Source: a virus
Length of the DNA: 20,052 nucleotides
Reading direction: 5' to 3' (one strand)
Virus record (IMG/VR): IMGVR_UViG_3300023301_000156
Span: 1 to 20,052 of that record
Shown here: piece by piece, positions 4,269 to 19,875 of the stretch
How positions within the stretch are numbered: position 1 is the first letter of the stretch
Layout of the letters: every line of letters starts with the position of its first letter
Program-made: the position numbers and the translations under genes
Notes under the pieces: generated by a model
What the model was told of the DNA's origin: nothing
The model's input: the letters and a program-made list of their open reading frames with translations, nothing else
The model's database searches: none

Positions 4269-5459
4269 TTAGTTTTTAATATGAATCGTCTTGCCACTCG
4301 GAGCAACTGCATCATTACCTCCTGCGATAACCCACAACACAGGGCAGTCCCACGCCCCACCCCAGTTCTGATCTACATATCCATCGGTCAACATGATCAT
4401 GCACTCAGGCTGTAACGCCTTGTCTCTCAGGTACTGCGTCACACACGTAGAGTCAGTGCCACCACCGTTCATCGGCTTAGTCGATGCAATCAAACCACCG
4501 AGTGAGTTCATGTCGTACGTCTCATGCCCAACCACGCTGCTGCCCCAGTACAACAAGTCAACAAGCTCGGGTGTCACTTCCTCTGCGATCGCCTTAACCT
4601 CAGACATAAACTCAGCCAGCTCCGCACCACCGATGGAGCCTGATGTATCTACGCCGACAACCAGATGCCCAACACGCTGCCCAATAAGCGTAGGCATGTA
4701 CATACCTTGCCCGATGAACCGCCGATTGACCCTACCCCATGACGGCACGTCCTTACCCCTGAACGTAGACTTGATGTACTCCCGCAACGCATCACGCCAG
4801 TCAATCTTGGGTGCAAGCAGGTCATCCAACTCACGCGACCCAGTACCGCTGCCCTTACCCGCCCGCTTTGCACTGATAGCACCCTGACGCAGGGCAGCAT
4901 CGATCTCCTTCTCCAGTGTCTTGCACTCCTCCTCAGTCCGTGCCTCCGCACCCTCCCAGTCATGCTCATCGAACCCATCACCGCAGCCGCCGCCCTCCTC
5001 TTGCTCCTTCTTTAGAAGGTCGAAGACTTGTTTAGTGTTCATGCCACGGTACTTCTCATCAATTAAACCCATCACCTTGCCGTCCTTCATAGGCATTTGC
5101 ATGATGCGTTCCTGCGGATCAAGGTCTTTCAGTTGCAGGTTGATCACGTAGTCACACGCAGCATTAGCCAGATGGTGGTTCTCGTCATGCAACTTCTTCC
5201 ATGTAGTCAGGTGGCGGTATGCCTTGTGACTAGCCTCATGCATGATGACGAACGCCAACTCCTTCTCGCTCAGGTCACGGATGAACTGCCGACCATAGAT
5301 CTCATCACGCCCGTTGGTACACGCCGTAGGTATAGCGTCACTGATCGAAGTCTTACCGACCATCATCACGCCCTGCCACAGTGCAAACTGTGAGTCGCGC
5401 ATCAGGTTGATCTTTACCTTCTTGATCTTGCGCTCTTCTTTATCGATTAAATCTAACAT
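4269..5459 (-). CDS. DUF2201-type putative metallopeptidase with C-terminal VWA domain
   Basis: The 396-aa product has an N-terminal domain with the zinc-protease motif HEASH at residues 74-78 (AFVIMHEASHKAYRH), followed by an acidic linker about 150-190 and a C-terminal von Willebrand A domain. The MIDAS metal site is complete: DTSGS at 271-275, GGGTD at 332-336, LTDG at 357-360. This is the layout of DUF2201/YwmD-type VWA proteins that pair with MoxR AAA+ ATPases. The gene follows the MoxR gene by 12 bases with AAGGAGAT before the ATG. The start codon lies inside a degenerate palindrome copy (5453-5467). Likely a metal-dependent partner that receives or releases clients of the ATPase; proteolysis is unproven. 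Confidence 0.9.
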   Translation of the reverse strand: MLDLIDKEERKIKKVKINLMRDSQFALWQGVMMVGKTSISDAIPTACTNGRDEIYGRQFIRDLSEKELAFVIMHEASHKAYRHLTTWKKLHDENHHLANAACDYVINLQLKDLDPQERIMQMPMKDGKVMGLIDEKYRGMNTKQVFDLLKKEQEEGGGCGDGFDEHDWEGAEARTEEECKTLEKEIDAALRQGAISAKRAGKGSGTGSRELDDLLAPKIDWRDALREYIKSTFRGKDVPSWGRVNRRFIGQGMYMPTLIGQRVGHLVVGVDTSGSIGGAELAEFMSEVKAIAEEVTPELVDLLYWGSSVVGHETYDMNSLGGLIASTKPMNGGGTDSTCVTQYLRDKALQPECMIMLTDGYVDQNWGGAWDCPVLWVIAGGNDAVAPSGKTIHIKN

Positions 5460-5467
5460 TGTGTTAT
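5453..5467. promoter_or_regulatory. Palindrome copy 2, degenerate (CTAACATTGTGTTAT)
   Basis: Two changes from consensus. It contains the start codon of the VWA gene, so occupancy of the site in DNA or folding in RNA could act directly on initiation. Confidence 0.6.
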
Positions 5468-5471
5468 CTCC

Positions 5472-6539
5472 TTACAACAGATCTTCGTTACGACTTACCC
5501 AGTCAGCGAACGCCTTGCAACCGAACGCCACACCCTGTTTGGTCTTGTTACGTGCAATGGCAATACAGAACACAGCCTGCCACTCAGCATCCATACGCGC
5601 CAGATACTGCATGAAGGGAGTCATGGTCTCCTTAGTAACCTTAGCTATCGCACCGTAAGCCACGATGGCACACGCACCTGCACTGGTCGGAACTGTCGCT
5701 GTCTTCGGACTCTTGATCGTCGCCTCCCATGTCGGTAGCTGGTCACTGAACTCCAAGTAAGCCTGCAAGTCACGCGCACCACTCTCACCGATAGCACCAG
5801 TCAACGCAGCAATAACACTGTCGGTATCCAACTGCTTACGAACCTTGATGATGTGGCTTGCTCTCTCCAACGAACGCGGACTAACGAACGCATCCTGCAC
5901 CTTGCGCGGGTTAAAGATGTACGGGTTGTCGCCCTGCCCACCATCGGTATAGCTTGCGAAAATATGCGGGAACTGCTTGCCCCACGCCAACACCTCCGGT
6001 GCAATGTCAGCACCCATCGCCCACTCAGACCACTGAGCGAAGTCAGGTTTAGCCACAGTCAGCGGCTGTATGCGGTTCTTTGTATGCGCCTTCATCGAGT
6101 CGCCCACGCCGTCACTGCTCAAGTTGCCCGTCATAAAGATGATGCTATCCGGATGCACAGGGATGTCACCGAGTCGCGGGTTGTTGATCTCCAACAGTGG
6201 GTGCAGCATATTCTTAACAGAGTCGAAGCCCTTGGTGTACTCATCCAGCATCACGATCATCGGCTGGCCGGTGTGGAAACCGAACCGATTGTTAGGGTAG
6301 TAGCGGGTTGTCTTGGTATCATGGTCGATCACTGGCATCGCAACGTCACCCAAGTCCATGTTAGGCACATCGATGTAAGCCACGCCGTGATTAGGTAGTG
6401 CAGCCTGTAGTGTCTTGATGATGGAACTCTTGCCTATACCAGCCTCGCCTTGCAACAGGTAGCGGTTCATCGGTGTGGACAGGATGATCTCAGCCGCTTG
6501 CTTCAGTGATACCTTCTTACCGAAATTGATCTCAGACAT
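5472..6539 (-). CDS. MoxR/CobS-like AAA+ ATPase
   Basis: The 355-aa product carries Walker A GEAGIGKSS at residues 31-39 (Lys37), Walker B MIVMLDE at 94-100, and sensor 1 Asn139 in FMTGN, all typical of MoxR-family AAA+ ATPases such as CobS. These are hexameric chaperones that remodel or load metal into partner complexes together with VWA proteins. The next gene downstream is the matching VWA protein. The gene starts at 6539 with AAGGAG spaced 6 bases, preceded by palindrome copy 6558-6572 and sigma70 promoter 6635-6663, so it is the first gene of its transcript. Cobaltochelatase activity is not implied: no CobN-like subunit is in the window. Confidence 0.9.
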   Translation of the reverse strand: MSEINFGKKVSLKQAAEIILSTPMNRYLLQGEAGIGKSSIIKTLQAALPNHGVAYIDVPNMDLGDVAMPVIDHDTKTTRYYPNNRFGFHTGQPMIVMLDEYTKGFDSVKNMLHPLLEINNPRLGDIPVHPDSIIFMTGNLSSDGVGDSMKAHTKNRIQPLTVAKPDFAQWSEWAMGADIAPEVLAWGKQFPHIFASYTDGGQGDNPYIFNPRKVQDAFVSPRSLERASHIIKVRKQLDTDSVIAALTGAIGESGARDLQAYLEFSDQLPTWEATIKSPKTATVPTSAGACAIVAYGAIAKVTKETMTPFMQYLARMDAEWQAVFCIAIARNKTKQGVAFGCKAFADWVSRNEDLL

Positions 6540-7594: not shown

Positions 7595-8338
7595 TTACGC
7601 TGCCAGTGATGCTGCGAACCGGCTTTTGAATGAACCGTGCACCACGATAGTCACGCTGGCTTTCTTCAAGTCAACACCACCACTGCAAGCCATGCATGTA
7701 TTGCAAGTCAACCGCTTACCTGCTTCCTCACTAGCAGGGCAGATCATCTCGTGACTGAATTCAGGTGTGCCGTCCGCTTGCCGTACACGGAATGTTCTCC
7801 AGCCGTCCATCTTTGCTATAGCGGCTTCTTTCGGTGTGTCCACGCTTGCCATACACCACTGCTTAACGTGATCTGCTTTACCGCTTGCCCATTGGTGCGT
7901 GTATCCGGTGTGACCTGATGCATTTTTGAGTATATTTGCCCATACATAAGCCGGTACAGCAGCAGAATCTCCATATGTACCCAAGCGCACTTTACGGTCT
8001 AGTACTGCCGTAGCCGCGTTATACCCATCATCCAGCTCATAAATACCGCGCATAACACCGCTCATAACCGAACGCGCACCTTGACCTAGATTAACGTAGC
8101 AGGAACCGCCCGTACCACGACGATGTTTGCAATCACCACATACTGCAGCGTCATCCAGTGCTTTGGCTGACTCGACTGGACTCTTACCATTATCTGCAAG
8201 GATATATGTTTGCACCATATCGCCGGTTTTACTGTTACTGGATTTACCGGTTATCACAACGACTACGATAGGCTCGCCGTTTAATAACGATGCGCCGCGA
8301 TAAATAATGTAGCCGGAAGCTTTTTTAGTTTGTGCCAT
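7595..8338 (-). CDS. DUF7227-like cysteine-rich phage protein
   Basis: The 247-aa product begins YIIYRGASLLNGEPIVVVVI, continues with SSNSKTGDMVQTYILAD and AAVCGDCKHR, then SCYVNLGQGARSV. This sequence pattern is widespread in phages and plasmids and is, to my recollection, the DUF7227 family. Eight cysteines at 67, 70, 80, 162, 200, 212, 215 and 218 form a CxxC-x9-C group and a C-x11-CxxCxxC group, consistent with two zinc or Fe-S sites. The start at 8338 has AAGGAG; the gene is first behind promoter 8424-8452 and the closest gene to the origin-like block. A nucleic-acid-related role is plausible but unproven. Confidence 0.8.
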   Translation of the reverse strand: MAQTKKASGYIIYRGASLLNGEPIVVVVITGKSSNSKTGDMVQTYILADNGKSPVESAKALDDAAVCGDCKHRRGTGGSCYVNLGQGARSVMSGVMRGIYELDDGYNAATAVLDRKVRLGTYGDSAAVPAYVWANILKNASGHTGYTHQWASGKADHVKQWCMASVDTPKEAAIAKMDGWRTFRVRQADGTPEFSHEMICPASEEAGKRLTCNTCMACSGGVDLKKASVTIVVHGSFKSRFAASLAA

Positions 8339-8372: not shown

Positions 8373-8423
8373 GTTTTTACGGGCTTGCTGGGGGGGAACC
8401 ACTTATCTACTTACTAAGGCTCT

Positions 8424-8452
8424 ATTATAGCCCAGATGTTATACATTGTCAA
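8424..8452 (-). promoter_or_regulatory. Perfect-consensus sigma70 promoter
   Basis: Read on the - strand: TTGACA at 8452-8447, exactly 17 bases, TATAAT at 8429-8424. It drives the DUF7227-like gene and the small genes behind it. A GTATTGTAAGG repeat motif sits 2 bases from the -35 (8455-8465), so an origin-binding protein could also control this promoter. The transcribed start AGAG with AGTAAGTA is shared with promoter 6635-6663. Confidence 0.92.
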
Positions 8453-8468
8453 GTGTATTGTAAGGAAA

Positions 8469-8645
8469 GTGTATGAAATGCAGTGCTGCTTAAAAAAGAG
8501 GCAGTGTAAGGAAATGGTGTAAGAAATGCAGTGCTGCTTAAAAAAGAGGCAGTGTAAGGGAATGGTGTAAGTTTGGCGTAAGAAATGAAGCGCTGCTTAA
8601 AAAAGAGGCAGTGCCTAAAAAAGAGGCAGTGTAAGAAAAGTTCGG
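8469..8645. repeat. 48-bp direct repeats with shared GCTGCTTAAAAAAGAGGCAG core
   Basis: Copies start at 8469, 8517 and, with an 11-base insertion, 8565. A partial fourth copy of the AAAAAAGAGGCAGTGTAAG part follows at about 8621-8638. Each unit also carries GTGTAAG-type words related to the TTGTAAG motif. CTGC and GCAG within the core can form a short stem. Confidence 0.85.
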
Positions 8646-8747
8646 GGGATTTTTGTAAGATTGTAAGGTTTTCAAAACGGTTTTCTAACAAGTTTTCTAA
8701 CAAAGCAAATCTAGGCTCTACGCCCCACAAAATAGTTAAAAAAAGTT

Positions 8748-8902
8748 GTATTGTAAGATTGTAAGGTTTTTTTAGATATATATAGCGGCGCCAAAATTTT
8801 CCTTTTTTCTGAGGAGTGCAACACTTGCGAGACCTTTTGTTAGGAAACTGTCCGCCAGATTTCCCGCTATACCCTTAAAATTTTCCTACAATCTTACAAT
8901 AC
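8748..8902. repeat. Inverted repeat flanking an AT-rich core
   Basis: GTATTGTAAGATTGTAAGG at 8748-8766 is matched by CCTACAATCTTACAATAC at 8885-8902, its reverse complement apart from one missing base. The 118 bases between contain TTTTTT and TATATATA tracts, a GGCGCC palindrome and AAAATTTTCC twice (8793-8802 and 8877-8886). Confidence 0.85.
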
Positions 8903-9021
8903 ACTTAAGTCATTGATTTTAAACGGAAAAGTCCCGAAAAAGCACTTGACACATTCTCTTACAATACACTCACTTTTCTTACAATAGCTTTTTGATACTT
9001 TTCCGTGCAATTTCCATGTTT

Positions 9022-9153
9022 CCTTACAATACAAAACCTTACAATACAAAACCTTACAATACAAAACCTTACAATACAAAACCTTACAATACAAAACCTT
9101 ACAATACAAAACCTTACAATACAAAACCTTACAATACAAAACCTTACAATACA
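9022..9153. repeat. 15-bp tandem iterons, 8.8 copies
   Basis: The unit CCTTACAATACAAAA repeats without a single change in eight full copies and a ninth partial copy (CCTTACAATACA). Further single CTTACAATAC words lie at about 8893-8902 and 8956-8965, and CTTACAATAG at about 8976. Exact identity suggests recent expansion or strong selection. Confidence 0.97.
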
Positions 9154-9215
9154 TTTTCGCTGCGGGCTAAGCCATGCTCTAACGGGTGTCAAAAAACCTT
9201 ACAAAACGATGGACG

Positions 9216-9239
9216 TAAAAAAGCCCACCGAAGTGGGCT
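9216..9239 (-). terminator. Rho-independent terminator, leftward
   Basis: On the - strand AGCCCAC, loop TTCG, GTGGGCT (stem 9239-9222), then TTTTTT. A 7-bp GC-rich stem with a tetraloop. It ends transcription from the 171-aa gene before the origin-like block. Confidence 0.95.
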
Positions 9240-9246
9240 GGATCTT

Positions 9247-9369
9247 TCAAGGTACGGTTAATACAAAACCCTGTTTTTCGCACCATGCGCGCTGTTACGC
9301 TTCAGTACATTCATCCCAAGATTTAAAACCCGAATGGTATTTATTATCCTTTGAGAGTTTTAATAGTTC
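9247..9369 (-). pseudogene. Remnant of a small gene interrupted by an in-frame stop
   Basis: Read leftwards from 9369, one frame gives ELLKLSKDNKYHSGFKSW plus DECTEA, then TAA at 9297-9295, then in the same frame QRAWCEKQGFVLTVP and a TGA at 9249-9247, directly before terminator 9216-9239. Both parts look protein-like (aromatic and Cys residues in a W-x-x-C-x-x-A pattern on each side), and no ATG, GTG or TTG is in frame upstream. The simplest reading is a small gene that lost its start and gained a nonsense codon. Palindrome copy 7 lies where a leader would be, as for intact genes. Chance similarity cannot be excluded. Confidence 0.4.
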
Positions 9370-9403: not shown

Positions 9404-9919
9404 TCAGATTATCGGTATCGCGCCTAAAACTGCGGATAACCGCTTGACTTGCTCGACGCTATCGAACGAAGGTTTCTCAAGTTTCTGTATTTTCTTAATC
9501 GCGTTCTCAATCGATTCACGAATTTTCTGTATATCAGACTTCGCTGATTTTGCTTCGGCTTCGGCTTCTTCAAACTCTTCATCCGGCATGGTATAACCGA
9601 ACAAACCCTTTGCCATTGCATCCTCCGTACCGGCTTTGCGAATACGGGACCATGCCGTAGACCAATTGTGCTCAACACCGTTTGTTTTAACCGCAACAGT
9701 TTTATATGCAAAACGTTCAGCGTTAACCAAAGGCTTGAGATTTTCCGGGATATCTTTTTCGAACCAAGCGAACCCTAAAGCCTTATTCAGTACTGCTCCC
9801 ACTGCGGTAATACATTGTTGCCCTTTAGCTATTCCAGCGTAGAGTTTAGCTGCTTCGGCATTACCCTTAACTTCAACATTGATAACTTCAACTACTACTA
9901 CCGATTTAACTTTTGCCAT
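9404..9919 (-). CDS. Hypothetical 171-aa protein beside the origin-like block
   Basis: Start chosen at MAKVKSVVVVEVINVEV (ATG 9919-9917), with AAAGGA upstream; the longer frame to 9967 lacks a ribosome binding site. The N-terminal third is beta-rich (KSVVVVEVINVEVKG). The middle has GFAWFEKDIPENLKPLVNAE and HNWSTAWSRIRKAG. The C-terminal 60 residues form a charged helix (EEFEEAEAEAKSAKSDIQKI onward), likely a coiled coil. It is the first clear gene of the leftward region and lies between the divergent control region and the iterons, the position expected of an initiator or regulator, but no DNA-binding fold is recognisable. Confidence 0.85.
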   Translation of the reverse strand: MAKVKSVVVVEVINVEVKGNAEAAKLYAGIAKGQQCITAVGAVLNKALGFAWFEKDIPENLKPLVNAERFAYKTVAVKTNGVEHNWSTAWSRIRKAGTEDAMAKGLFGYTMPDEEFEEAEAEAKSAKSDIQKIRESIENAIKKIQKLEKPSFDSVEQVKRLSAVLGAIPII

Positions 9920-10009
9920 GATAATTTCCTTTGAGTTTTTTGCCCGCCCTGTTGAGCGAGTGAACATATTATCGCTTGTTCATTAGACTTTGTATAGTAC
10001 TATCGAATT

Positions 10010-10482: not shown

Positions 10483-11073
10483 TTGTGGTATAACTCCCGC
10501 ATGGTTAATATCGAACCAACAAAAGATCATCCGATGCCTTACGATACTTCTCCAGAGAGCCCAAGCAGCTTTCGGGACAAGGTGATTGTTGCCGCCAATA
10601 CGGCGGACTTGCTAAGTGATCTTGGTGCACCGATGGAAGTAACCATCGAGGATATGATAGAGACAAGCAAGCTGTTTAAAACTACAGACAAAGTTGCTGC
10701 CGCTACCGCTCTAGCCCGCCCTTCAACTGCACATGCTGCTGCCATATTCATCAGAGAGTATGCAAACCACGTAGTAGCTGATATTACCGAGGTACGTTCT
10801 GCTATCACTGCAAAGCTCATGGAGCTAGCCAACTGTGGTGAACCTAAGTACGAACTCAAAGCCCTAGAACTACTAGGCAAACATTCTGACGTTGGGCTTT
10901 TCACTGAGCGCAGCGAGATCACAATCAATCACAAATCATCCGACGACCTAGAGACCGCCATTAAAGAGCGCGTCAAACGGCTTATGAACGCCAATATCAT
11001 TGATGTGCCAGTTTCCATCGAGAGTTTGGACGAAGAGCTAGGTATTGCGGAACCGATTGATGATGTTGAATAA
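10483..11073 (+). CDS. Terminase small subunit
   Basis: The 190-196-aa product resembles small terminase subunits of podovirus-like phages: helical N-terminal part (VIVAANTADLLSDLGAPMEV), a central VAAATALARPSTAHAAAIFI segment, and the closing SEITINHKSSDDLETAIKER, a pattern seen before the C-terminus of this family. It recognises the packaging site and hands DNA to the large subunit, whose gene overlaps it by 14 bases. Start is uncertain: a TTG at 10483 has AAGGA 7 bases upstream, while the ATG at 10501 (MVNIEPTK) has no ribosome binding site. I give the TTG but regard it as open. Confidence 0.85.
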   Translation: MWYNSRMVNIEPTKDHPMPYDTSPESPSSFRDKVIVAANTADLLSDLGAPMEVTIEDMIETSKLFKTTDKVAAATALARPSTAHAAAIFIREYANHVVADITEVRSAITAKLMELANCGEPKYELKALELLGKHSDVGLFTERSEITINHKSSDDLETAIKERVKRLMNANIIDVPVSIESLDEELGIAEPIDDVE

Positions 11074-12577
11074 CATTTCCCTAGCAGACATACCCAAGAT
11101 CCTGCCGCACTTAAGTGTTGTGGAGCAGCGCAAGCTGTTAGTGGACTTGGAAACCCTAGCGGAGATGAAACGCAAAGAAGGTGCGCGGGATAAGTTCTTA
11201 AGCTTCGTCAAAGAGATGTGGCCTATATTTATTTCGGGTAGACATCATGCGCGGATGGCCGATGCGTTCGAGCGGGTAGCTAATGGTACGTGCAAGAGAC
11301 TGATTATTAACATGCCACCACGGCATACGAAGTCTGAGTTTGCATCTTATTTGCTTCCGGCGTGGTTTTTAGGTAAGTTTCCGCACAAAAAGGTCATTCA
11401 AACGTCCCATACCGCTGAATTAGCGACGGGATTTGGCCGTAAAGTACGAAATTTGGTGGACTCCGAGGCGTATAAGTCTGTTTTTCCTGATGTTTCCCTG
11501 CAAAGTGACTCAAAAGCGGCGGGGCGGTGGAATACAAACAAGGGTGGTGACTACTTCGCTATCGGTGTGGGCGGTGCAGTGACCGGTAAAGGCGCTGACA
11601 TCCTAATTATTGATGACCCACACTCTGAGCAAGAGGCTGCACTAGCCGAAGTTAACCCAGATATTTACGACAAGACGTACGAATGGTATACGTCGGGCCC
11701 ACGGCAGCGTCTGCAACCGGGTGGAGCTATTGTTGTTGTTATGACACGATGGTCGTTGAGAGATTTGACGGCTCAGGTTATTAAAAGCTCAGTCAACCGG
11801 GGTGGTGACGAGTGGGAAGTTATTGAGTTTCCTGCAATCCTGCCTAGTGGCAAGCCGTTGTGGCCTGAGTTTTGGAAGCTAGACGAGCTTGAACGGATTC
11901 GCACTGTTCTGCCTAACGGCAAGTGGATGGCTCAGTACCAGCAACAACCGACCTCGGATCAGAGCGCGATTATCAAGCGTGAGTGGTGGCAGATATGGAC
12001 GGGCGAGAGTCCACCGCACTGCGAGTACGTGTTACAGACTTGGGATACTGCGTTCGAAAAGAACAACAGGGCTGACTACTCCGCATGTACTACGTGGGGG
12101 ATCTTCCGGAACGAGGAAGACAACAATAACCAGCACATTATCTTGCTAAATTCGTTTAAAGAGCGATTAGAGTGGACAGACCTTAAAAAAACTGCGTTTC
12201 AGCATTATAATGACTGGGAACCTGACGGCGTACTAATTGAAAAGAAGGCTACCGGTGCTCCACTGATTAGTGAGTTTCGGGCTATGGGTATACCAGCTCA
12301 AGAGTTTACGCCGGGCAAAGGTAACGATAAGATTAGTAGGTTGAATGCAGTGTCTGACCTGATAGCTTCGGGTCGAGTATGGGTTCCAGAGACTAGATGG
12401 GCAGAAGAGCTGGTGGATGAGATAGCTAGCTTCCCTGCTGGAGAACATGATGACTTGGTTGATGCGACAACACTTGCATTGATGAGGTTCCGTAAAGGTG
12501 GATTCATTCGGTTACCGACTGACGAAGCTGAAGACCCGATATATTTTAAGTCCCGTCGTGGGACTGGGTACTATTAA
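11060..12577 (+). CDS. terL: Terminase large subunit (TerL)
   Basis: The 505-aa product has the packaging ATPase in its N-terminal half: Walker A-like MPPRHTKSE at 85-93, Walker B ILIIDD at 181-186 and a coupling-type segment VVVMTRWS at 225-232. The C-terminal nuclease has acidic metal-binding candidates at D329 (QTWDTAFEK), E394 (VLIEKKATG) and D464/D465 (EHDDLVDA). It pumps DNA into the prohead through the portal and cuts the concatemer. Start at 11060 or 11063 (tandem ATG) inside the end of terS, indicating translational coupling. Length and all motifs are complete. Confidence 0.96.
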   Translation: MMLNNISLADIPKILPHLSVVEQRKLLVDLETLAEMKRKEGARDKFLSFVKEMWPIFISGRHHARMADAFERVANGTCKRLIINMPPRHTKSEFASYLLPAWFLGKFPHKKVIQTSHTAELATGFGRKVRNLVDSEAYKSVFPDVSLQSDSKAAGRWNTNKGGDYFAIGVGGAVTGKGADILIIDDPHSEQEAALAEVNPDIYDKTYEWYTSGPRQRLQPGGAIVVVMTRWSLRDLTAQVIKSSVNRGGDEWEVIEFPAILPSGKPLWPEFWKLDELERIRTVLPNGKWMAQYQQQPTSDQSAIIKREWWQIWTGESPPHCEYVLQTWDTAFEKNNRADYSACTTWGIFRNEEDNNNQHIILLNSFKERLEWTDLKKTAFQHYNDWEPDGVLIEKKATGAPLISEFRAMGIPAQEFTPGKGNDKISRLNAVSDLIASGRVWVPETRWAEELVDEIASFPAGEHDDLVDATTLALMRFRKGGFIRLPTDEAEDPIYFKSRRGTGYY

Positions 12578-12586
12578 GGATGTGCG

Positions 12587-15073
12587 ATGGCAACTAATAT
12601 GGATAAGTCGCTTTACCAAGCGCCACTAGGGCTAGATAGCCTCGATAGTGAAGAGCCTGAGATTGAAATTGAGATCGAAGATCCCGAGGCAGTTCATATT
12701 GGTATGCCGGGCATGGAGATTGATATTGAGAAAGAGATTCGGGACGAGGAGTTTAGTGCTAACCTCGCCGAAGACATGGATGAGTCTGAGCTATCATCGC
12801 TAGCAGGTGATCTGCTGGGTGAGTTTGAAGATGACATATCTTCCCGCCAAGACTGGATGCAGACATACGTTGACGGCCTTGAGCTGTTGGGCATGAAGAT
12901 CGAGGAGCGAAGTGAGCCGTGGGAGGGAGCTTGTGGTGTGTATCACCCCCTGCTGTCTGAGGCTCTCGTTAAGTTCCAGTCCGAGACTATCATGGAGACG
13001 TTCCCGGCAGCGGGCCCTGTCAAGACCCAGATCATCGGCAAAGAAACACCTGAGAAAAAAGAAGCAGCTGACCGTGTATCTTCCGACATGAACTATCAGC
13101 TTACCGACAAGATGGTTGAGTACCGCCCGGAGCACGAGCGTATGTTGTGGGGCTTGGGTCTGTCAGGTAATGCGTTTAAGAAAGTGTACTACGATCCATC
13201 GCTGGGTCGTCAGGTCTCCCTGTTTGTTACCGCTGAAGACATCGTGGTGCCTTACGGCGCGAGTAATCTGGAGACTGCAGACCGTGTAACCCACGTGATG
13301 CGTAAGACAAAAAACGAGATGCGCAAGCTGCAGGTAGCTGGCTTCTATTGTGATGTCGATCTGCCAGAGCCGTCGAATAGCCTTGACGAAGTAGAGAAAA
13401 AGATCGCTGAAAAGATGGGCTTCCGAGCTACATCCGATGATCGCTACAAACTCTTGGAGATGCAGGTCAATCTCGACTTGCCGGGCTACGAAGATGAAGA
13501 TGAGGATGGTGAGCCAACAGGTATCGCCCTGCCGTACATCGTTACTATCGAGAAAAGCTCACAGACTATTCTGGCTATCCGCCGTAACTATAGACCAGAA
13601 GATGAAGCTAAGATCAAACGTAGCCACTTAGTCCACTACGGTTACATTCCGGGCTTTGGGTTCTATAACTTTGGTTTGATTCACCTGATTGGCGCATTCG
13701 CTAAGTCCGGTACGTCGATCATTCGACAGTTGGTTGACGCTGGTACGCTGGCTAACCTGCCGGGTGGTTTGAAGACCAAGGGCATGCGCGTTAAGGGTGA
13801 CGACACACCGATTAGTCCGGGCGAGTTCCGTGACGTTGACGTAGCTTCGGGCACTATTCGCGACAACATTCTTCCTCTGCCGTACAAAGAGCCAAGTCAA
13901 GTTCTGGCTACGCTGCTGGGTACTATCGTTACTGAAGGTCGTGCGTTGGCAGGTTCAGCGGATCTTAAAGTATCTGATATGTCGGCTCAGTCCCCAGTTG
14001 GGACTACCTTGGCTTTGTTGGAGCGTCAGCTCAAGGTTATGTCTGCAGTTCAGGCGCGTATCCACTACGCGATGCGCCAAGAGTTCCGGTTGTTGCGCGA
14101 CATTATCCGTGACTACACTCCAGACGAGTACAGCTACGAGCCAGAAGAAGGCGGTCGTAAAGCTAAGAAGGCTGACTATGACATGGTGGAAGTTCTGCCT
14201 GTCTCAGATCCTAATACCGCAACGATGTCCCAGAAGGTTGTTCAGTACCAAGCCGTTATGCAGATGGCTCAGGGCGCACCACAGATTTACGACATGCCTG
14301 AGTTGCACCGCCAGATGCTAACCGTACTGGGTATTAAGAATATCGGTAAGTTGATTCCAACAGCCGACGACCAGAAGCCACGTGATCCTGTGTTTGAGAA
14401 CATGGCGATGATGAACGGTAAGCCGGTCAAAGCCTTTATTCACCAAGACCACGAAGCTCATATTGCAGTGCACCAAGCGGCTATGCAAGATCCGAAGCTT
14501 GCTGCAATCATGGGTCAAAACCCTATGGCTCAACAGCTTCAAGCCGCAGCTATGGCTCATATTGCCGAGCACGTAGGTTTTGCGTACCGTAAGCACATCG
14601 AAGAGCAATTAGGTATCCCTCTGCCGAAAATGGACGAAGAGATGTCTAAAGAAGTTGAGATTGAGTTTTCCCGTCTTATGGCTGCAGCCGGTCAGAAAGT
14701 CTTGCAAGCAAATAAAGCCGAAGCTGCACAACAGCAGGCTCAACAGGCTCAACAAGATCCTATCGTCCAGATGCAACAGCAAGAACTGCAGATCAAACAA
14801 GCCGAGCAGAAACTTAAAGAAACTAAGCTTCAGTTTGATGCCGCAGGTAAGGCTGACCAGTTGGAGATTGAACGTGAACGTATAGCAGCCCAGAAAGAAA
14901 TCGCGGGTATGCAGGTTGGCGCTCAGACTGCTAAGAATAAAGCGGAACTTGAAGCCAAGATGGAACTTGAGGGTTTAAAAGTTGGTACAAAAACGAAACA
15001 CCAACAAGCTCAACTTCTAATTCAAGCTATGCAAGCGGATAAAGCCGAAAACAAACCTAAAAAGGGTGAGTAA
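12587..15073 (+). CDS. Portal protein, P22-like, with long C-terminal coiled coil
   Basis: The 828-aa product follows TerL by 9 bases with TAAGGATG as ribosome binding site. Residues 1-75 are acidic (IEIEIEDPEA), the core contains PWEGACGVYHPLLSEAL near 109, HERMLWGLGLSGNAFKKVYY near 184 and VPYGASNLETADRVTHVMRK near 222, patterns typical of large podovirus-type portals. The stretch from about residue 695 to the end is Gln/Ala/Lys-rich heptad-like helix (AAQQQAQQAQQ onward), consistent with a P22-like helical barrel. As a dodecamer it forms the DNA entry channel and docks TerL. Its stop overlaps the next start (TAATG). Confidence 0.93.
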   Translation: MATNMDKSLYQAPLGLDSLDSEEPEIEIEIEDPEAVHIGMPGMEIDIEKEIRDEEFSANLAEDMDESELSSLAGDLLGEFEDDISSRQDWMQTYVDGLELLGMKIEERSEPWEGACGVYHPLLSEALVKFQSETIMETFPAAGPVKTQIIGKETPEKKEAADRVSSDMNYQLTDKMVEYRPEHERMLWGLGLSGNAFKKVYYDPSLGRQVSLFVTAEDIVVPYGASNLETADRVTHVMRKTKNEMRKLQVAGFYCDVDLPEPSNSLDEVEKKIAEKMGFRATSDDRYKLLEMQVNLDLPGYEDEDEDGEPTGIALPYIVTIEKSSQTILAIRRNYRPEDEAKIKRSHLVHYGYIPGFGFYNFGLIHLIGAFAKSGTSIIRQLVDAGTLANLPGGLKTKGMRVKGDDTPISPGEFRDVDVASGTIRDNILPLPYKEPSQVLATLLGTIVTEGRALAGSADLKVSDMSAQSPVGTTLALLERQLKVMSAVQARIHYAMRQEFRLLRDIIRDYTPDEYSYEPEEGGRKAKKADYDMVEVLPVSDPNTATMSQKVVQYQAVMQMAQGAPQIYDMPELHRQMLTVLGIKNIGKLIPTADDQKPRDPVFENMAMMNGKPVKAFIHQDHEAHIAVHQAAMQDPKLAAIMGQNPMAQQLQAAAMAHIAEHVGFAYRKHIEEQLGIPLPKMDEEMSKEVEIEFSRLMAAAGQKVLQANKAEAAQQQAQQAQQDPIVQMQQQELQIKQAEQKLKETKLQFDAAGKADQLEIERERIAAQKEIAGMQVGAQTAKNKAELEAKMELEGLKVGTKTKHQQAQLLIQAMQADKAENKPKKGE

Positions 15074-18813: not shown

Positions 18814-19521
18814 ATGGCGCAAGGAATTTACAAGATTATTAATGTAGTTAACAACAAGTTTTATGTTGGAAGCGCGGTAGATCTTAAGCGACGCAAAACA
18901 CGACACTTCTCTGAGCTGCGTACTAGCAAGCATAACAATAGGTACTTGCAAGCTGCATGGAACAAGTACGGGGAACAAGCTTTTGTTTTTGTTGTGGTAG
19001 AAGATCTGCCAAAAGGTGCTGATTTACTAGCGGCAGAAAATGTATGGCTTAACGAACATGTTGGTAAGGAGTACTGCTATAACATAGGTATTAATGCCAC
19101 TGCACCCATGCTAGGTATGTCTGGGGAACTTAGCCCTACTTGGGGGTACAAACATACTCCAGAAGCTATAGCCAAAATAGCCGAAACCTCCCTAGGTCGT
19201 AAACAATCTGCGGAAACCATAGAAAAGAAAATAGCGTATATGCGGGGTAAGCCTAAATCCGCAGAAGCTAGAGCAAAAATCTCCGCAGCCTTAATGGGCG
19301 AAGGTAATTTCTGGTTTGGTAAGAAGCGCCCAGAACATGGGGCTAAGGTAAGTAGGGCTGTTGTAGCTACAAGCCCGGATGGAAAAACACTAGAGTACGA
19401 CAGTATTCAGGCGTTGCGAGAAGCCTCTGGTATGAAGCCCCCAACTATAAACCGTGCGTTAAAGTCAGGTAAACTATTGACACGGGGGCCTTACAAGGGC
19501 TGGAGCTTTAAATACGCTTAA
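18814..19521 (+). CDS. GIY-YIG homing endonuclease with NUMOD3 and NUMOD1 modules
   Basis: The 235-aa product has GIY at 4-6, YVG at 17-19, a basic RRKTRHF segment at 26-32 and the catalytic-type Glu75 in LLAAENVWL, so the nuclease domain (1-90) looks intact. Two NUMOD3 DNA-binding motifs follow (GYKHTPEAIAKIAETSLGRK at 111-130; RGKPKSAEARAKISAAL at 144-160) and then a NUMOD1/IENR1 helix-turn-helix at about 184-235 (SIQALREASGMKPPTINRAL). AAGGAGG precedes the ATG. Free-standing enzymes of this type cut a homologous locus lacking the gene and spread by repair. Codon use differs from the head genes, indicating separate origin. No intron is evident. Confidence 0.95.
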   Translation: MAQGIYKIINVVNNKFYVGSAVDLKRRKTRHFSELRTSKHNNRYLQAAWNKYGEQAFVFVVVEDLPKGADLLAAENVWLNEHVGKEYCYNIGINATAPMLGMSGELSPTWGYKHTPEAIAKIAETSLGRKQSAETIEKKIAYMRGKPKSAEARAKISAALMGEGNFWFGKKRPEHGAKVSRAVVATSPDGKTLEYDSIQALREASGMKPPTINRALKSGKLLTRGPYKGWSFKYA

Positions 19522-19527
19522 CCGTAG

Positions 19528-19552
19528 CCCCGCTCACAAGGTGGGGTTTTTT
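19528..19552 (+). terminator. Terminator of the GIY-YIG gene
   Basis: CCCCGCT, loop CACAA, GGTGGGG (two G-T pairs), then TTTTTT. Its stem overlaps the last codons of the convergent HNH gene. Confidence 0.85.
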
Positions 19553-19875
19553 CTTTGGTTGTAGTGTTCTTTACGATGACAGTTAGCGCAGAGGACTACA
19601 CACTTCTTAATCTCTTCCCTAGCCTGTTTGTACGCCCCGTTAGCTGTTAGGCGGTGTACTTTCTTATCGCTATCTGAGGGGTTTATATGATGAAAGTCTA
19701 GGATTGCGGAGTGTGATTCACCGCATTTTATGCAGGATAAAGTCTGTTTAAACTCTTCCCATTCAACCCGAACTCTTTTCTTGCGGATGTTGTTACGTGA
19801 GATTACTAAAGCCTTGTGCTTTTTGTAGTGCCGATCGTTAGCTAGTTTACGTTGGGCGGGGTCTTTTGATGGCAT
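19534..19875 (-). CDS. HNH endonuclease
   Basis: The 113-aa product is the compact two-CxxC HNH type: zinc pairs C48/C51 (CIKCGE) and C96/C99 (CANCH), catalytic LDFHHINP at 59-66 with His62/His63, and Asn98. The N-terminal 40 residues are basic (RKLANDRHYKKHKALVISRN). It is a nicking or cutting DNase that is probably a free-standing homing enzyme. It faces the GIY-YIG gene tail to tail, opposite to all structural genes, and has no clear Shine-Dalgarno (GTAGAATG only), so expression may be low. Its start region overlaps the promoter zone of the next + gene. Confidence 0.93.
   Translation of the reverse strand: MPSKDPAQRKLANDRHYKKHKALVISRNNIRKKRVRVEWEEFKQTLSCIKCGESHSAILDFHHINPSDSDKKVHRLTANGAYKQAREEIKKCVVLCANCHRKEHYNQRKNPTL

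Follow-up and report, generated by a model that had tools for sequence, protein, structure and literature searches.

A gene-free block of repeated words in this uncultured, tailed water phage is probably a replication origin of the PICI/SaPI type, which a DUF927 helicase would read. The DNA analysed here, the window, is a linear viral fragment of 20,052 bases, and the initial annotation had suggested an origin at this place from its repeats. Comparison with relatives supports that suggestion: because the position of the block, the opposed words, a core of low stability and an IHF-type box are all kept, and because the relatives encode a helicase like SaPI Rep and Cch, an origin is the best explanation of the block.

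Layout of the block and its surroundings

The block spans about 8420-9250, between leftward genes at 7595-8338 and 9404-9967 (table 1). It contains no convincing genes, as the initial annotation had stated, and the open reading frames present there are repeat-encoded. The eight exact 15-base repeats described earlier are present as tandem copies of CCTTACAATACAAAA with a period of 15 bp, starting at 9022, and a ninth unit (9142-9156) terminates in ATTT. Exact copies of the word CTTACAATAC number 13 (11 on the plus strand, 2 on the minus strand), every one of them inside 8455-9152 and none elsewhere in the window. With one mismatch allowed there are 18 matches, compared with 1.29 expected from shuffled sequences (shuffle maximum 4). 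The two minus-strand copies, at 8455 and 8748, lie on the opposite side of the AT-rich core, which bears out the earlier claim that the word is inverted across it. Since the left side carries about 10 TGTAAG words, part of them within a 48-bp direct-repeat family (8469-8641), the array is two-sided rather than one-sided.

Table 1. Features of the block and its neighbourhood in the window.
Feature	Position	Strand	Remarks
phrog_2554 gene	7595-8338	-	first gene leftward of the promoter; neighbour, no demonstrated part in the origin
Early promoter, sigma-70 type	8424-8452	-	leftward; TTGACA-17-TATAAT, 12/12 consensus; left edge of block
Left word array	8455-8770	-	about 10 TGTAAG words in a single orientation (0 plus, 10 minus)
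Word CTTACAATAC(C)	8455-8465	-	two bases from the promoter -35
AT-rich core	8725-8790		presumed unwinding element; least stable 60 bp of the window start at 8725
CACTTGC motif	8822-8829	+	between core and right array; also in several relatives
Right word array	8893-9207	+	13 CTTACA words (13 plus, 0 minus)
IHF-consensus box AATCAATGACTTA	8906-8918	-	candidate site; fits WATCARNNNNTTR
Iterons CCTTACAATACAAAA	9022-9156	+	eight exact 15-bp units and a ninth, variant copy
Intrinsic terminator	9222-9239	-	shields the block from the leftward gene to its right
Likely small terminase subunit (TerS)	10483-11073	+	neighbour; assigned by position and sequence pattern, without a family hit
TerL	11045-12577	+	rightward
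Portal	12587-15073	+	rightward

The IHF-type box stands among the right-hand words, and IHF-consensus sites are scarce, at 1-3 per roughly 20 kb. No DnaA box was found inside the block at up to one mismatch, the one weak match lying outside it at 9431, and an Rfam search returned no match. The promoter and the terminator that had been placed on either side of the block are both found, at 8452-8424 and 9222-9239, and so is the word two bases from the -35 element, at 8455. An initiator bound to this word would affect the early promoter, as in the autoregulation proposed initially, and the promoter may itself help to open the origin. The first gene downstream of it does not encode a recognisable initiator: phrog_2554 was rejected for this role, having no supporting family and no match among the long relatives compared.

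Gene layout divides the window into early genes running leftward to about 10 kb and packaging and head genes running rightward thereafter. Cumulative GC skew, which had been recommended as a check, was computed but gives no support for the origin: in this clade it follows the direction of transcription, and it is monotonic in 023Pt and DSL-LC04, so that it is uninformative.

Several further elements were recorded in these genomes. The near-palindrome TCTAACATSATGTTAGRTTT is dispersed over the window (2107, 5453, 6558, 6977, 7550, 8358, 9386 and 10010), several copies sitting just upstream of leftward gene starts. Relatives bear CCTAACATTGTTAGG-like versions of it, with up to 28 CCTAACA words in a 15.5-kb locus (L072), and these copies are possibly regulator sites or RNA hairpins. 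At 4269-6539 of the window an AAA ATPase adjoins a DUF2201 metallopeptidase/VWA-like protein, a pair that is kept in the clade; the annotation of Rhizobium phage RHph_TM3_14A likewise lists proteins with ATPase and metallopeptidase domains. After the major capsid gene lie adjacent GIY-YIG-type (18814-19521) and HNH-type (19534-19875) homing endonucleases, assigned by sequence pattern, the latter with homologues in G001, G003 and DSL-LC04. One TAG stop interrupts a TerL homologue (G062:C1:32030-33556).

Equivalent blocks in related phages

About 25 related contigs, collected as TerL-based relatives, carry an equivalent block 2-4 kb upstream of terL. Their words differ (CTTACA, GTAACAT, CTAACAT, ACAACA, CTAATA), with the CTTACA core shared by the closest relatives, and this change of words explains why an exact 26-mer search of viral contigs and a distant BLAST of the block against phages gave no match. 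The initial annotation had taken absence of the repeats from close relatives as evidence against an origin; the exact 15-mer array is indeed absent from those contigs, and equivalent arrays are present. In G001, G003 and G008, and also in G002 and G004, no other 7-mer in the entire record is clustered as strongly as the block word.

The opposed orientation is kept as well. Over 18 loci, with the word for each locus picked from that locus's own block, minus-strand words outnumber plus-strand words by 95 to 24 on the left of the core, and the reverse holds on its right, with 108 plus and 19 minus, so that 203/246 fit the left/right plan; the relatedness of the phages means that the words do not count as independent observations. 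In 8/11 contigs of 20-74 kb the block contains the 60 bp of lowest stability in the entire contig, and in a ninth it ranks second. Despite the change of words, an IHF-consensus box is kept in 13/18 related blocks, as AATCAANNNNTTA in most, on a strand that varies between phages. Promoter equivalents (9-12 of 12 consensus positions, mostly with a spacer of 17) stand at the same edge in most of the 18 loci, with words close by in several relatives and word-like sequences inside the promoter spacer in some. Terminator-like hairpins recur at the right edge in most relatives. At this edge, six loci (L051, L072, L075, L110, L293 and L294) also bear a repeated element ending GAACTATCAT / GAACTGTCAT / AACTGGTCA, often as two or three copies next to CCTAACA palindromes.

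Two cultured phages have comparable regions. In RHph_TM3_14A a repeat-rich, AT-rich gap contains TCATAAT-type words and two IHF-consensus boxes. In Pseudomonas phage Rollin the gap bears TTGCATA words together with an IHF-consensus box and has an AT-rich stretch close to the start of the record; the words of both phages are less cleanly two-sided than those of the window's clade. Clusters of TGGCACA and CTAGGAAA words were also seen upstream of terL in more distant, pelagiphage-type genomes (023Pt_psg01, 13573-13800; HTVC023P, 11680-11790), and a homologue of the DUF927 helicase was not found in the records, or parts of records, of these genomes that were compared.

A primase-helicase as candidate initiator

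Long relatives (G001, G003, G006, G008) encode a PrimPol-DUF927 helicase of about 950 residues, 16-18 kb from the block. Its gene is absent from the 20-kb window, and we infer that the genome of the window phage encodes it outside this fragment. The DUF927 domain matches PF06048 (E 1.9e-27), while the match to NCBIfam SCCmet_Cch1 (E 7e-10) is far under the family cut-off. A profile built from 31 members of the family matches SCCmec Cch (5dgk) with E 1.4e-13. The N-terminus is PrimPol-like by a profile match (E 0.0085) and by the match of its model to cyanophage S-2L PrimPol. The full protein was modelled with moderate quality (pLDDT 75, pTM 0.41), and this model places Cch and SaPIbov1 Rep first (E 1e-18 to 1e-16). 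The model of the C-terminal 215 residues (pLDDT 78) has the helix-strand-helix-helix-strand-strand order of a winged helix, with SaPIbov1 Rep (Z 9.3) and Cch (Z 8.7) as best matches and other winged helices after them; the SaPIbov1 Rep and Cch fits have a large rmsd over both domains, so that domain placement differs. By sequence and predicted fold the helicase is thus kin to SaPI Rep and Cch, and it is probably the reader of the block words. Distant homologues in RHph_TM3_14A and Rollin share 24-32% identity. The Rhizobium phage homologue (L299 31240-34323, MN988472.1) is annotated as 'putative integrase protein', which looks like a misannotation.

We then compared the words with variable positions of the shared proteins. 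Inspection of 8 genomes by eye, later extended to more, first drew attention to residue 910 (G001 numbering) at the predicted wing's base. Every CTTACA phage has T or V here, and N is confined to phages whose words are of the TAAC type. Among 3971 variable columns of the shared proteins compared in 18 genomes, column 910 ranks first by normalised mutual information with word class (0.77), followed by a TerL column (0.68), with terS columns at 0.65. Five predictions from this residue were fixed before the blocks were read, of which three were right and two wrong, and the rule that V excludes CTTACA failed in G057 and G061. With these five added (23 genomes), column 910 still ranks first of 784 helicase columns (0.69 versus 0.64), and in a two-class test of the 23 genomes it is second to a different column. 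A simple code also fails for G032, where T accompanies a weak TAACA block, and for G040/G041, where V accompanies GTAACAA. The genomes are related, and the tree points to no more than about two or three independent changes. The link between word and residue 910 is suggestive rather than conclusive. Similarity over the whole C-terminal domain gave no coevolution signal. Two fast-evolving early proteins, of 297 and 290 aa, were rejected as initiators, having no Pfam or PHROGs family and no word-linked column, although sampling of the 290-aa protein was too sparse for column scoring.

At the proposed origin, the PrimPol-DUF927 (MCM-like) helicase would bind both word sets through its C-terminal winged helix and load as opposed hexamers, melting the AT-rich core between them, and IHF or a similar host protein would bend the right-hand side. 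Such an origin would be expected to fire bidirectionally.

Alternative roles and known systems

The words could instead bind a phage regulator of the strong early promoter and have no role in starting replication. In favour of such an operator cluster are the consensus promoter that marks the left edge, the word 2 bases away from the -35 element, the promoter's conservation in relatives and the word-like sequences in the spacer of some of them. However, the words reach 700 bp away, flank the AT-rich core and reverse orientation there, most contigs have their least stable DNA in this core, and an IHF-type box lies between the right-hand words, which makes a purely regulatory role improbable; regulation and origin function are compatible rather than exclusive. 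It is less probable still, and very unlikely, that the repeats form a pac/cos site bound by the small terminase subunit, whose gene lies about 1.3 kb off. Both terS and terL are close by, and lambda cosB and P1 pac combine repeats with an IHF site, but a least-stable AT-rich core within a two-sided array suits melting better, and the association with word class is weaker for terS columns (0.65) than for helicase column 910 (0.77). The records of the closest isolates have been circularised, or opened at genes. Repeats with an IHF site also occur in attP arms, which the block resembles; a site for recombination (attP arms) or partition (a centromere) nevertheless seems extremely unlikely, as no integrase or ParA/B was found among the scanned proteins of the window and G001 or in the annotations of the closest isolates. 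The helicase family was found in bacterial genomes in two MAG contigs only, and we therefore see no sign of prophages. Promoters for a phage RNA polymerase were rejected as the identity of the words because the words are confined to one block.

An origin might also be read by another, unrecognised phage protein. Several early proteins that evolve fast belong to no known family, and the code linking word and residue is imperfect, yet the helicase has a fitting fold, its relatives are known to bind iterons, and no column in the other shared proteins compared tracks the word as well; we consider another reader unlikely. Operator-only, packaging and recombination roles are thus less likely than an origin; the simplest explanation is that the block is an origin and that the phage's own helicase reads it.

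With about even confidence, this origin reading may extend to a large clade of tailed phages that infect water bacteria and are apparently virulent; they would use a two-sided PICI-type origin and a distant, fused primase-helicase-initiator. Recognition word and winged-helix residue would change together in these phages, and the origins of related phages would therefore be mutually incompatible. If true of autonomous phages, this would bear on the source of the replication module of satellites. One clade would then combine an origin and its candidate initiator with a series of altered recognition words, making origin-initiator coevolution directly testable.

Parts of this arrangement are found in known replicons. 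Iteron plasmid origins such as those of pSC101 and R6K have iterons, an AT-rich region, an IHF site and an autoregulated promoter, whereas here no plasmid-type Rep was recognised, the block has no DnaA box and opposed words lie on both sides. The alpha protein of phage P4 combines primase, helicase and origin binder and acts with repeats and AT-rich DNA at ori, a likeness to the present case, although P4 is a satellite. SCCmec Cch (5DGK) is the nearest solved helicase to that of the relatives. Cch2, which binds direct-repeat iterons via its C-terminal domain (PMC7581432), belongs to another helicase family, and its putative origin has three iterons downstream of the operon. The closest parallel in layout is with SaPI/PICI origins. 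PICI origins always have two iteron sets around an AT-rich region (PMC6092414), and the window shows 0/10 (plus/minus) words on the left and 13/0 on the right with the AT-rich core between them. SaPI Rep reads origin iterons through its C-terminal domain (PMC7581432), and SaPIbov1 Rep (8TCH) shares with the relatives' helicase the DUF927-type helicase and, as predicted here, the winged-helix fold. The phage version differs in having a fused primase domain and an IHF-type box and early promoter in the block. It also belongs to tailed-phage genomes rather than satellite islands: PICIs are small elements without virion genes, whereas the window carries TerL, portal and other structural-gene homologues. 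In SaPIs and PICIs the origin lies directly 3' of rep, and in the long relatives 16-18 kb separate it from the helicase gene; because of this difference in distance, we class the block as working like a PICI-type origin and not as a PICI.
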